64,000 nt of DNA, from positions 5,862,001-5,926,000 of the forward strand of contig JAJEKV010000073.1 of NCBI GenBank assembly GCA_021234155.1. The letters run 5' to 3'. The stretch is from Isoetes taiwanensis. Lineage: Eukaryota; Streptophyta; Lycopodiopsida; Isoetales; Isoetaceae. The notes beneath the pieces were generated by a model. That model did no database searches and was not told where the DNA came from. It saw only the letters and a program-made list of their open reading frames with translations. Position numbers and translations under genes: made by a program. Shown in pieces: positions 23,483 through 38,152 of this stretch; the stretch's first letter is position 1; the number at the start of each line of letters is the position of its first letter.

Positions 23483-23578
23483 TATATATATATATATATA
23501 TATATATATATATATATATATATATATATATATATATATATATATATATATATATATATATATATATATATATATATA
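23483..23578. repeat. (TA)n microsatellite, ~96 bp
   Basis: Uninterrupted TA dinucleotides joining the left inverted arm to the first GATTC-array element. Confidence 0.98.
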
Positions 23579-23634
23579 CAAGTATTTATACTATGAGGGA
23601 GTGTACGAAGTCGGATGTACGTACATAGGTTTCC

Positions 23635-23790
23635 CCAGAATCTTATAAGATTTAGGATATATTTTGATTCCTCTAAAACTATAAGGTTTCTAAGTTTATC
23701 AAAGATTCTTTGTAGGAATCTATTAAGATTCCCCAAAATACTGCGAGCATTCTTTAAGATTGCACAAAGATTCGCCAAAGAAACCCCTGG
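23635..23790 (+). repeat. GATTC array of element I
   Basis: A short, degraded array: agaatcttataagattt, ttgattcctc, aaagattctttgtagg, aagattcccc, aagattcgcc. It lies just inside the terminus, as in elements II-IV. Confidence 0.65.
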
Positions 23791-23941
23791 ACTCACTACA
23801 AAGTACACCCTAGTGTGTAAGATTCTCGTATGTTTGCATTACAAAATCGACTACTAGTTTGTCGTCAAAATGTTTATGAAGTTTTTTATCGCCTTCGACT
23901 TGTGTTTTGGGCATAAGTTAGGGCATGTGATAGCAAGGGTC

Positions 23942-24124
23942 ATGTTTATGCTAATCCCAAAATTTCGCATGCATTGGTAGCTTCTGCTTGTAAAAAAACA
24001 CCAAAAACTGCATTCTAATGCCAAGTTTTCATTATGCTTGTGCTTATGCTAATGTCATATTTCACATGCATTGCCTTGTGCTTATAACCAACACCCAAAA
24101 CTGCATTCTGATGCCAAGTTTTCA
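23942..24124. repeat. Direct repeat of ~90 bp, two copies
   Basis: Both copies contain tatgctaat, tttc-catgcattg, then aaaactgcattct-atgccaag and ttttca. Copies start at about 23945 and 24045. Confidence 0.75.
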
Positions 24125-25066
24125 AATATGCTTGGTTTGGTTGATGATCGAACTATGAACAGTTGTGCCATCGATGGTAATTTGTGCTCGAAATTTTTGT
24201 ATGGAGATTTTATTGTGAATATTTTGGCAAGAAAATTGGAAGCTAAAGTCACCCTATTGAGCATGGTCAAATAAGAAACACAATGTCGAAGTTCAATAAC
24301 CCCATCAAAATTAACTCCAAGCGTGAAAGTTAATTCTAAACCAAAACGTCAAACCGTATCCTGTATCCTGATATTGCTCTCTTGCATTCTAACCGTTATT
24401 GTTGGGCCACCTCATAATGTTAAGATACGTCAACGGTCATGATCACAACAATGAAGCAATATATAATAATTATTATAAACTATAAACGTGTGCCCAGCAA
24501 TGCCGGGCACGGGTTTGTAGTTCATAGAGTGTATATAGTTTGGGGCATTAGTTTAGGAGTTGTCATGGTTTAGCATGTCATGTATTCTTTTTGCATTAAA
24601 TTTCTAGCATTTCATGCACATAGAACCTTTTGAGTGACATCGAAACTTATAAACTTAAGATCTCGAGCCAATAATAACAGTACATGGCTTCAAACATTAT
24701 GTATCGACATCTAAGGTATTTAAGACATAGACATGCCATAGCACTCTATCTAAAATGTTAGGGTGGTAGCTTGTGATCAAAATATTTGTACGAAGACTTT
24801 AGCATAAAGATTTTAAAGTTAAAGTCGATATATTGAGCAAGGTCAAATTGAAAAGTCAAGCTAAATTTGAATTAAACTAAAGAAGTCAACCCGTGAAAAT
24901 CAAAAGTAGGTTCTATACAAAATTCTAACATGACACGGGCCAATATTTACTATGTTCGAACTTTACCAACCTATAACAGCCTTTTAGATCATACGTTATT
25001 TTGATTCCACCATTAGAATAAAGGTTGCATTAGTCCAAACATAATTGCATGCCCCACATAACAACT

Positions 25067-33989: not shown

Positions 33990-36900
33990 GTTAATCTCGA
34001 TTAGTTGATTTTTTTATATGCGCGGAATGTGTCATTGTGGACCATTAGATTCCATGAGCTCCCTACAACATTTCCCCTTTATTTGGGGCTTTTTTTGATA
34101 TGGGACGCCGGATTTGAGGAATTAAATTGGGGCTTTTAACCCGCATCCAGTCAAATTTTTGGTCCTCACTTTTCTCGCTTCTCCCAATTGGCGACAACGG
34201 CGGAACTCCGCAATGGCGCGCTCATTTGGACCTCACGGGCATATGCTTCTCAAGACTTTCGGCTATGGCGATGCTTCCACATGCATTTCCCTTCTTTTTT
34301 AAACCGTTTCTTTTTTGCGGATATGGTGCAAAAGTGTGATCAAACGAAAATCGGCTTCCAAAATTTACTTTGTGGATTCAAAGGGTCGGGTTCAGATGTG
34401 GCTCGGAGTTTTTACGTGATGGCGGTCTCTCCCCGCCGCATATCGCGGCCTTTGATATGGTAAGGATGTCCGGATCCGGGCAATATAATTTTTTTTCGGT
34501 TTGTTCGGGATTGCGGGGCACATGAAACTCTCGATTATTCTAGTCATGTTGTGGCTTCCGGGTTGAATAGAAAAGGTATCGATTTTTCTGTTCGCCTTAT
34601 CATTTAGGGATGTTGAAGATTATTTGGTGGCTCCTTGCAAAATCTGTTGTCCGGTAGTGTGCTTGCAATAAAGCTTTTTTTTTCTTTTTATGGGTTGTTC
34701 TTACCAGATTGTGCTCACTTGCGGAGCCATTTGATTGATGGAGCCGAATTTGATAGAATCGTGATGGTTGTGTTAGGCCGAGCAAGCTGCAGTGATCAAA
34801 TTTCATCTGCAAATAGTGATCATGAGGGCTTGGTCCGCGAAAGGGCGCCATGAACTCAAAGAACGGCAGTTGGAGCAAAGAGGAACGCCCATACTGTTTT
34901 TTAACTTTGTATGAATATCTAATGATTCGTAATATGTTTGCGATATATACGATCCTTGTGTTTCAACCAAGAAGAGCTTGTGCCTTTGAATCCAAGACAC
35001 CCATCCTCGAAATTTTGATCCGGTATGTTTTTCCCGCCATACACATTATATAAGAGTCGACATGATTTCGATTGTTTCGCATCAAAAACCCGATCGAATA
35101 TGTGATTCTTGCATTGCAAAGGATAGATTAAGAGAGTTTTTTTGCATGTTAAAAGTGATCGAACCTCATGGTAATGCGTGTTTGCCAACCCGAAGCAACA
35201 AATGGTGCAAATCATCTTGGGCCAAAATACATAAAGAATGACAAAGCTTCGAAAGCAACAAGGTAATGGTTATATTTTTATTCCTTTCCAATCTAATTCA
35301 AGAAAATAGAACATCTCTATTAACTTTTTGTCCTCTAATTGTAGTTGCATGCACTAATCCAATATGAGTCCGTCGAACAGTGAGAAAAAGTCAGAAGTCC
35401 GAATTTACATCTTCTCTACATGTATTGCTTTGGTTGTAGATGCATCAATTAATCGATAAGAGGATAATTCTTTAGGTTGCGCACCTCACGGATCGAGGCA
35501 ATTGGAGAAGTGGTCTTCATGTGAGGTCGCTTCTACGGCGTCGATAAGTTGCTACATGCCAAAATGGTAGTGCTTTTATGCATTTGTTAGACCCTTGACT
35601 TTCTCTGGCCGGTGTTGTTTAGTTCCCCAACAAATATGGGCATAAGACCGGTCACGATGCAACAGAGGGAGAGGATGATGGTCCGTCGAAGAAAAAAACA
35701 AAGTGAAGATCAACGGCCCGAAGGCAATCGAGGAACCGGTATGCGCCTCTCTATTGCTTTTATGTTGAGTCATGCGGTTTTATGGGATTTAGGTGTTGAT
35801 GTTAGCTATTGGGCATCCATCGGGGGGTGAGCATGCCGGATGGAACCAAAGGTTTTAGCATGGGTCGTGGCAAGGCAATACCACTGTGAATACATCTTAG
35901 CCTGTTATTCGTGATTACCTTAGCCCGGTTATTCGAGTTTAACCGGCATGCACCAAAGCCGAAATAATGCACCATGAAGAAATGTCATTGATGCAAAGAT
36001 CATTCCGGATGACCACGTCATATTCCAACTCGTCTTGCTCAAGTTATCGGTAGGGAGGCAAGCTCTTGCCTTGTGATCTTTCAACAATGCACTAGGATAT
36101 GGCATCCCGATATTATTTCTCAAGCAAAGGAATTCAAGGTGGATACACTTCATGCATACTCCAATCGTAAACTTTTAATGACTAACACGAATATAGCCAC
36201 TAAGGGCCATGCGTAAATCGAGAAAAAGTAAAGCGGTACCTTTATGTCGTTCTTCCATCTCTACTTGCAGCATACTAATCTTAACAAGCATAGGTCAAAA
36301 AGCTCCCGTTCCATAGGTTTACGGTGCTACAGATTGGCTGTAAACCATGGGAATACGAAATGGTAATTACATTAAATGCAAAGTTCACCAATTCAAGAAT
36401 ACTCAAGACCTTGCCTGTTTTAGGATACGACTATGAATTTGCCAAATCCATTCTTACATAACCCATAATTCACGTCTCCTATAACTCATTAAATGCATTG
36501 TACCATATGGCAGGTCAAGTCATTCTCAAGGAAAAGACTTAATGAAAATGTCAAACCCTAGATTTTTACACAACTTCTTGAATTTCCAAGGTACGAATAA
36601 TTTAGATATTGGGTCCCATCATAGCTTACCATGGTGCAAAATGGTTCAAATCAATAGTGAGATTATAGTGCCATATCCGCATGTCATACAAGTGTGTAGT
36701 CCATATTGTGTGTCGAAGTAAAGGTCTTGCACTAGAAAGTTAATGTTATATTTGGTATAATTAATGTAAAATCGACCTCCCATGGAGTCATGTATGTGTG
36801 GACTAAGCAAATACTATGCCTTACACCTTAGAGCAACAAATGCACCATGTTGCCTTTGATCTTCAAACAAGACTAACATATCCCTAGATGTCTATTATCA

Positions 36901-37700
36901 TAATGTTACATGTTAGACCTTCCATAGATTTTTATTCAGCAACTACAACAGCCATTGGATTTTCAGAGCAAGTCCTATGTTAATAGGACATGTTCAAGTT
37001 ATAGAATGAGGTGCATGTAGAGTTAAACTAAACACAAAGTCAACACTTGCATTTCATTACATTTGACTATGGGTTCTCATCTTTCGGGACAGGTCAAATT
37101 ACAATTGCCAAAGCGTTAATTAGAGCTCTATTAGAAATTTGAGCATAAGTTAACCGGAAAGTTGACTTGAAATTTGGACGTCTCCTCCCTCTACATGCCA
37201 CACACTTCGATTCGGCCTTGAGGAGTGCATGGGGCGCCGGCTCCTTCAAATGGATCCATTTAAGGAGTCATACTTTACAACATAAATTCCATAATGAAAC
37301 AATGGGGTAATTCAAGTTAAATTTACTAGAACATTTAAAAAGTTTCAATACTTCAACTCGAAGAATTTGGAGGAATCTAAACATTATCAACATTTCTTAT
37401 GGTTTTTACTATTTGCAAATTTAAAAGCTCCGTACGATGCCTTAAAGAAAATATATCTATACAACTACTATATTTTTAGTTTACTCATGCATGCTTTATG
37501 ACTTGAAGCATAATTGAGTCAAGAAAAAAACAAAGGACAAACGTGCAATAAATTTTCTCAACAAGAAATTCAGCGAACAACATAGCCATATGAGAATCCT
37601 TTTAGTCAGATGTTGAAATACGACTTTCACCACAACTTAAACGAGAGTTTGGTCAAGGGGGTGGTCAAATAATTGGCCAGTGGTTTGACTAGGCTTCATG
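33990..37700. other. Interior of element IV, no gene recognised
   Basis: Several short ORFs (34188-34463, 35612-35830, 35929-36153 minus) have no motif I know. 34100-36150 is richer in C and G than its flanks and has cgg-rich words that could be decayed coding sequence. 36200-37700 is plain AT-rich. Confidence 0.35.
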
Positions 37701-37714
37701 TACAGTGTCACACA

Positions 37715-37985
37715 CGAGGGGAATCCTAGGGAATCTCAAGGAATCTCAAGAGAATCTTAGGGAATATCAAGAGAACTTCTCTGAATCTAGCGAAATGTAA
37801 GAAAATTTAGAGGAATCTTCATACAATCTTGGAGAATCTAGGAGAATCTACATAGAATCTTTGTGAACATAAGGAATCTTTGGGATAATCTTTGGGAATC
37901 TGGGAGAATTTAAAAAGAATCTTTGTGAACATAGGAGATCTAAGGGAATCTTCATAAAATCTTTAAGAATCTAGGGGAATCTTTG
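37715..37985 (-). repeat. GATTC array of element IV
   Basis: On the plus strand it appears as GAATC repeats (gggaatctcaaggaatctca, agagaatcttaggg, aggagaatctacatagaatc), the complement of the arrays in elements I-III, matching its reversed orientation. Confidence 0.85.
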
Positions 37986-38114
37986 ACAGAAGTGGAACCA
38001 ACAGGTTGACTTAGAGTTTGAGCATGTGTTGACTGCCAGTAGAACTTCAGCTTTGGCTTCTTTTCTATAGCTTTCAGTCGACTTCATACACCCCCTTCAT
38101 AGTACAAATACTTG

Positions 38115-38152
38115 TATATATATATATATATATATATATATATATATATATA
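38115..38152. repeat. (TA)n microsatellite
   Basis: TA dinucleotides between the end of element IV and the poly(A) end (poly-T here) of the minus-strand L1 copy. Confidence 0.95.

Follow-up and report, generated by a model that had tools for sequence, protein, structure and literature searches.

Our findings describe a 14.5-kb chain of mobile elements in a 64-kb stretch of DNA from the lycophyte Isoetes taiwanensis, referred to at its full length as the window. Four elements, I to IV, lie end to end in TA tracts in the stretch 23483-38170, and with their relatives elsewhere in the genome they very probably represent a large, non-autonomous group of DNA transposons with (TA)n as insertion target, a reading that concerns the homing to TA and not the enzyme. 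An earlier note on this DNA had proposed a family of DNA elements targeting (TA)n, with the chain growing by insertion into TA, and this proposal is supported by the many copies with the same ends, by an empty site in the window and by the unrelated flanks of dispersed copies.

The chain and its empty target site

The left ends of elements I, II and III start at 23578, 30594 and 32492 on the plus strand and that of element IV at 38115 on the minus strand, which bears out the four shared termini of the earlier note. All start with ACAAGT and differ from the core ACAAGTNNTTGTACTATGAGGG (22 places) at 1, 0, 2 and 1 positions, respectively, and the only other match in the window, with up to 5 mismatches allowed, has 5. 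Element I (6.9 kb, 23578..30495, plus strand) opens with ACAAGTATTTATACTATGAGGG next to a (TA)n tract at 23483..23577 and closes with a hairpin followed by GGTGCTTATATAATTG-TATATATA-AGGG (30369..30495, plus strand); the element is marked out by its left-end match, its gene-fragment domains and its recurrence at conserved spacing, and its right end by its fold and its recurrence elsewhere. A (TA)49 tract (30496..30593) separates it from element II (1.9 kb, 30594..32491, plus strand), in which a left end, a GATTC array, a right module and the right end CACCCCCCCATAGGACACATCCAATAATTG plus TA follow one another. Element II is apparently interrupted within its own TA tract, at 32482 plus TA, by element III (1.4 kb, 32492..33918, plus strand), which shares the same plan, with its GATTC array at 32542-33324 and the right end CACCCCCCCATAGGACCCATAAAATAATTG-TATATATA-AGAG finishing at 33918. 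The right ends of III and IV stand tail to tail, with a 17-nt spacer (33919..33935) separating them; the reversed element IV (4.2 kb, 33936..38115, minus strand) has the right end ATGTAACACCCCCGTATGTAAGTACCCTCATATC-TATATATATAATAG, finishing at 33936, to which a right end in locus L058 is similar, and outside its left end come (TA)19 and then a T run (38116..38152). The right ends of I and IV (30495 and 33936) are their own and went unnamed in the earlier note. The common right end that it described for II and III (32453-32482 and 33875-33904, up to AATTG) is real but runs about 12 bases further than described, and the right modules of the two elements are 85.8% identical (454/529 aligned positions). 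The chain is built without nesting, in that no family end lies within another element of the window, although an insertion into the TA octamer of a right end does cut that right end. Only three tracts of (TA)≥7 exist in the 64 kb (96, 98 and 38 nt), each touching a left end, and the left end of III adjoins a TA tract of 10 nt.

An empty copy of the chain's site, found by comparing the window with itself, lies about 30,000 letters away. A 601-base piece of the left flank recurs there, reversed and 100% identical, and this second place has both flanks joined as an inverted copy on the minus strand (52359..54484), in which 22596-23495 corresponds to 54484-53585 (left flank 887/887 identical) and 38165-39394 to 53585-52359 (97.7%, or 1,199/1,231 aligned columns). 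The joint in the empty copy consists of CTCTAATCAACTAG (CTAG before TA), a 13-nt TA tract with no insertion (53585..53597, minus strand) and TTTTGATAGC; the occupied copy has the same left side, then (TA)48, the chain, (TA)19 plus T, a T run of 16 and GATAGC. The near-identical empty copy indicates true insertion of the elements, and the 14.5-kb chain most likely stands in a formerly short TA tract. The search for an empty (TA)n site suggested by the earlier note thus ended in a find. The TA tracts beside the chain measure 96 and 38-39 nt versus 13 nt in the empty copy, and having an empty and a filled site within one window makes the growth of a TA tract on insertion measurable. Growth of this kind has been described for maize TAFT elements, as told in a passage of PMC5907723.

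Ends, copies and chains across the genome

The whole genome (1.66 Gb; 1,658,258,908 bases in 1,110 contigs) was searched with patterns of the ends, with the reversed pattern as control. The left-end core has 524 exact matches and the commonest right end 321, against 0 for each control, and ATAT stands directly before 421 of the 524 left-end cores but not before the other 103. An imperfect TA tract is still present at some of the left ends that lack ATAT, such as those on contigs C171 and C29, and TA flanks are the rule, though not an absolute one. Copies outside TA were sought for duplications of 8-11 bp; the C171 copy proved to lie in TA, and C29, considered as a chain outside TA, was rejected as such, being a tandem duplication (1.49 kb) that includes an end. 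Left and right ends also go together: among 98 left and 69 right ends, 17 properly oriented pairs lie within 12 kb versus 2 wrongly oriented ones, whereas random placement of the ends yields 3.9 expected pairs and never more than 12 over 2,000 trials. This count covers the contigs up to C905, for which both lists are complete (2 left and 31 right ends on larger contigs are excluded), and two of the 17 pairs share one right end. The span lengths of pairs recur (7,889/7,890/7,892; 6,640-6,836, four times; 9,629/9,644) and mark large families; two copies of the 7.9-kb element are 92% identical over 7.77 kb.

The right ends in the fetched loci run beyond AATTGTATATA to the TA octamer TATATATA and a short tag, after which (AT)n follows. 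A right-end pattern with two free positions, A/T for the subtype and G/T within the tag, has 120 matches in the genome, with 0 for the control, and among the 100 of these that were listed subtype A pairs with AAGAG and subtype T with AATAG without exception. Because of this linkage, the tag is inherited with the element and the octamer lies inside it. By eye, the extension is kept exactly in 33 of 73 right ends of both subtypes among the 100 listed of the 321 matches to the commonest right end. Right ends come in few types, and they finish with the TA octamer followed by A-N-R-G. The octamer also serves as a target: III sits in the octamer of II, and the right end of the 7.9-kb element, intact at C5:231701, is interrupted within its octamer by a foreign left end at C11:62024 (L044). 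This offers a simple reason why such elements form chains. The resemblance between right ends and reversed left ends, which the earlier note had pointed out, is weak to moderate for the left ends of I-IV against the right ends of II-IV (shuffle p 0.0015-0.19) and does not extend to the right end of I (0.49-1.0), and long terminal inverted repeats (at least 40 bp) were not found.

The left end of element II (111 bases) has a 100% match at 9 of 40 scored places, the window's own included, and eight copies are 97.5-99.3% identical over the 1.5 kb inside the left end, while the outer 1.2 kb beyond the TA tract is unrelated among them, apart from 151 bp common to two. As these copies are alike inside and unrelated outside the TA tract, comparison of their sequences indicates that they were dispersed by transposition, and fairly recently. 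Judged by the flank endings, another end of the group adjoins five of the eight, the window's copy included. Neighbouring ends that face each other within 300 bp in the fetched loci form 9 right|left, 4 left|left and 1 right|right junctions; these 14 are a lower bound, in that the count missed the II|III junction of the window, and the chains have no clear bias in orientation, 9:4:1 being compatible with a random 2:1:1. Other arrangements of the ends were also seen. On C401 (465814-481644, part of it in L058), four left ends follow one another in one orientation about 5.2-5.5 kb apart, and this block is apparently a tandem array of a unit containing a left end. In L017/L018 (C11:151040-151267), two head-to-head left ends about 200 bp apart lie in an interrupted TA tract.

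GATTC arrays, the cargo of element I and neighbouring features

The GATTC array that the earlier note placed after each terminus is strong in II (59 GATTC in 1,207 nt versus 1.3 predicted by base composition) and III (40 in 859 nt versus 0.8) and moderate in IV (17 in 1,317 nt versus 1.5; positions 37373-37981), but it was overstated for I (5 in 1,423 nt versus 1.5). Nor is the array a constant part of the elements, as it follows (at least 15 GATTC in 1.3 kb) only 19 of 47 left ends with at least 1 kb of sequence, a set chosen largely by patterns that include TA. A strict three-unit GATTC pattern has 8,899 matches in the genome against 69 for the control, and not every array lies beside a strict left end: by eye, 18 of the 100 matches listed (C1-C7) lie within 2 kb of one. 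Diverged left ends may adjoin other arrays, as a stretch of L040 suggests. The arrays are thus a feature of some subfamilies, able to expand like a satellite. At C1:167494-176404 (part of it in L039), next to a left end, a GATTC block roughly 9 kb long has a higher-order period of about 0.92 kb and is apparently an element array turning into a satellite. Neighbouring GATTC motifs are mostly spaced by 10, 11, 20, 21, 30 or 31 bases, and seven arrays have best local periods of 10.05-10.45 bp (vector strength 0.72-0.94; 10.45 bp for the 59 copies of element II at 30662..31783, plus strand), measured without a control, where a period of about 10 would be expected of any array grown from a 10-11 bp unit. 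One turn of B-DNA is close to such a period. Our guess is that, in the array-bearing subfamilies only, the array might act as a subterminal platform, its binding sites all facing the same side of the helix.

Element I carries fragments that resemble host genes, namely an amino-acid-transporter-like one at 25628-26146 on the minus strand (PF01490, Aa_trans, E 2.1e-9) and a PPR-like one at 26898-27503 on the plus strand (PF01535, E 2.3e-18). When element I was compared with a Pack-type element, both of its outer parts were found to be multi-copy, and the host-gene-like fragments were seen in the window's copy. Its right end holds a near-perfect 97-nt hairpin (30369-30465; -44.4 kcal/mol and z -13.2 for the 103-nt fold), after which come the TA octamer and AGGG, and it recurs at L014/L044, L015 and L029. 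The end module is 95-98% identical at several places, and a query holding the 97-nt foldback has 804 candidate places, of which 40 were scored. The outer parts 23640-24540 and 29560-30460 have three further places at conserved spacing (two on C57, one of them reversed, and one on C437), with 5.9-6.2 kb between the parts versus 5.92 kb in the window, and with identities of 94-100% on the left and 86-92% on the right; a search for the chain's left flank, with 727 candidate places and 40 of them scored, showed it at neither C57 nor C437. At C57:672720-686590, two copies of element I stand tail to tail, and their alignments stop at positions 875 and 781 of the 901-base query; judged by these alignments, both seem to be cut short of the right end at their joint.

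Outside the chain, the window at 39394-45046 contains a second insertion relative to an empty copy at 51601-54484. This GC-rich element (up to 66%) has, by eye, a reverse-transcriptase-like frame on the minus strand and a GGAA repeat at its left border, and a plasmid search with it gave no match. A direct repeat pair (54476-55737 and 62665-63930) is 94.6% identical over 1.27 kb, and a search of the window against Rfam at the gathering threshold gave no match.

The enzyme, rival explanations and known systems

The long copy with a transposase that the earlier note suggested looking for was not found. Several points weigh against a group of TA-homing DNA transposons, and we gather them here. Among 40 of the 188 frames of at least 85 aa from 20 large loci, together with 10 frames of the window, Pfam revealed no transposase or autonomous copy. 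Two MULE (Mutator-like element) frames of the same genome match none of the fetched loci in tblastn. The terminal inverted repeats are short (about 27 bp) and imperfect, and at the right end they are set inward by about 12 nt; target-site duplications cannot be read inside TA tracts. The copy at 53585 could in principle have lost the chain rather than always lacked it, a less likely reading because that copy retains no remnant of any element. The arrays away from left ends and the unspecific period noted above belong here as well.

The sole match to a mobile element among the scanned frames is a zinc finger in L040 (zf-C17orf113, E 3.6e-18), presumably of hAT type. It belongs to a gene with broken frames (L040:1-2179, minus strand) that has 50 candidate places, many of the 40 scored on C1044. 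This hAT-like gene was set aside as a partner, as copies on C185 occur with no strict end on that contig and the gene is not tied to the ends. Frames of at least 40 aa from the 20 loci, compared with the window (645 rows), yielded no shared transposase remnant among the 70 longest. In L049 and L052, frames that by eye resemble copia or other reverse-transcriptase genes were seen. Candidates for Helitron Rep (1,813) and MULE (1,020) domains are very numerous in the genome, some of them in long open frames, and 150 of each were scored; by eye, none of the 12 scored MULE candidates on contigs up to C905 lies near a strict end and none of the 10 scored Rep candidates there lies within 20 kb of one.

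By analogy with SaTar, MuTAnT and Micron elements, the enzyme is most likely Mutator-like, though nothing here proves it; this is our first choice because the TA-homing groups described in the relevant passages of PMC4486113, PMC5907723 and PMC8449440 are placed with Mutator. A transposase supplied in trans would recognise both ends and join the element to a TA tract, and repair would then lengthen the tract, so that the next copy meets a larger target. Every right end also comes with a TA octamer of its own, into which copies insert as well, a use as landing site that is probably general. Insertion into the octamer or the tract would let the chain grow without breaking the body of any element, and in the array-bearing subfamilies GATTC would perhaps serve as a platform of binding sites. 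More tentatively, and at rather low probability, this could be a TA-homing group outside the known MULE types, in a lycophyte, with a self-planted landing site at its right end, a helix-phased GATTC platform and maybe a non-Mutator enzyme.

Two further explanations share the insertion into TA and differ in enzyme or route, and their probabilities do not exclude one another. A rolling-circle enzyme of the Helitron2/Helentron type, which we consider unlikely, would go with terminal inverted repeats that are asymmetric, would leave the target site unduplicated, and would capture genes and form head-to-tail chains. Here the left-end repeat does stand at the very end and its inverted counterpart about 12 nt inside the right end, yet in Helitron2 the 3' repeat precedes a 3' hairpin and keeps a distance of 20-30 bp to the end, according to the passage concerned of PMC3627910. 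A fold TACAA-GTNN-TTGTA is possible for the left end and puts its variable bases into the loop, but this hairpin does not outdo shuffled sequences (z -0.4 to -1.0), nor do the right ends when folded together with the octamer. There are gene fragments in element I, some DINE-1-like elements are known to contain internal tandem repeats (a passage of PMC4067079) and Rep domains abound in the genome; of the ten scored Rep candidates on contigs up to C905, however, none comes within 20 kb of a strict end, and chain orientation lacks a clear bias. Similarly improbable is a route in which a transposase only excises and the excised circles, with TA filler, enter TA tracts by homologous recombination. 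This circle model has been published for SaTars (in part of PMC5907723) and agrees with non-nested chains and with neighbour-separating TA tracts of very different length, but no sign of circles was seen here and direct joining to TA explains the same joints. We give very little credence to an explanation without transposition, in which shared ends would be scars of duplication or rearrangement at fragile TA tracts and GATTC a co-spread satellite: the tandem duplication on C29, the four left ends on C401 and the array on C1 that grew to about 9 kb all agree with it, but the homology of the eight element II copies starts at the left end with unrelated flanks, the ends pair in orientation 17 to 2 and the short empty site has intact flanks.

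Transposons that home to TA would also bear on how their hosts' genomes are read, since long TA microsatellites can arise there as a side effect of transposition. The lycophyte lineage split off some 400 million years ago, and the present case would either place this habit in an early-split lineage or mean that it has arisen again. The titles and abstract openings listed from mostly open-access literature revealed no lycophyte family of this type, and the consulted portion of an Isoetes sinensis paper (PMC10541799) makes no mention of such elements. As a kind, however, the elements are not undescribed, which the earlier note had thought possible. TA-targeting elements in modular, non-nested arrays are covered in passages of PMC5907723, PMC4486113 and PMC8449440. 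Homing to TA is on record for several plants, including rice, maize, Medicago, pineapple and guayule, while modular chains are described for guayule, rice, sorghum and citrus, with clusters in pineapple (parts of PMC5907723 and PMC8449440). A survey of 207 plant genomes places Micron-like MITEs (miniature inverted-repeat transposable elements) mainly in Poaceae and Rosaceae, according to the section seen of PMC12550479.

The closest likeness is to the SaTars of guayule, rice, sorghum and citrus, non-autonomous MULEs that, in the passages used of PMC5907723, have microsatellite flanks in 62-95% of copies depending on the guayule family, where ATAT precedes 421 of the 524 ends here. Those passages also report intact elements chained via TA (19-47% linked in guayule) without nesting and with several families per chain, and a longer TA tract after insertion in the case of maize TAFT. 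Guayule SaTars measure about 0.4-1.7 kb and have inverted repeats of 40-250 bp, whereas the present elements are 1.4-10 kb with short asymmetric ends, a built-in TA octamer and, in a subset, GATTC arrays, and neither 10-bp duplications nor an autonomous MULE is shown for them. MuTAnT of Medicago truncatula, in the corresponding passages of PMC4486113, is alike in its (TA)n target, its 218 copies, its empty sites with short TA and its foldback, comparable to the right end of element I; it is set apart by a length of mostly 200-300 bp, a mean inverted repeat of 47 bp, GGGG tips, an autonomous copy with mudrA and, outside TA, duplications of 9 nt. The Ac-mMITEs of pineapple and rice Micron likewise target (TA)n and cluster by adjacent insertion, though Ac-mMITEs are 210-570 bp long with inverted repeats of 40-180 bp (passages of PMC8449440). 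Helitron2, Helentron and DINE-1 elements resemble ours in asymmetric inverted ends, internal tandem repeats in some and gene capture, and differ in T-rich or A/T targets, a 3' hairpin and a RepHel protein, none of which is shown here (sections of PMC3627910, PMC4067079 and PMC5148889). In summary, the TA-homing, chain-forming way of life is known from flowering plants and is not new as a kind; judged by the published descriptions, what is apparently new is the family itself, its lycophyte host, its asymmetric ends, its GATTC arrays with a period of one helix turn and its members of 6.5-10 kb.

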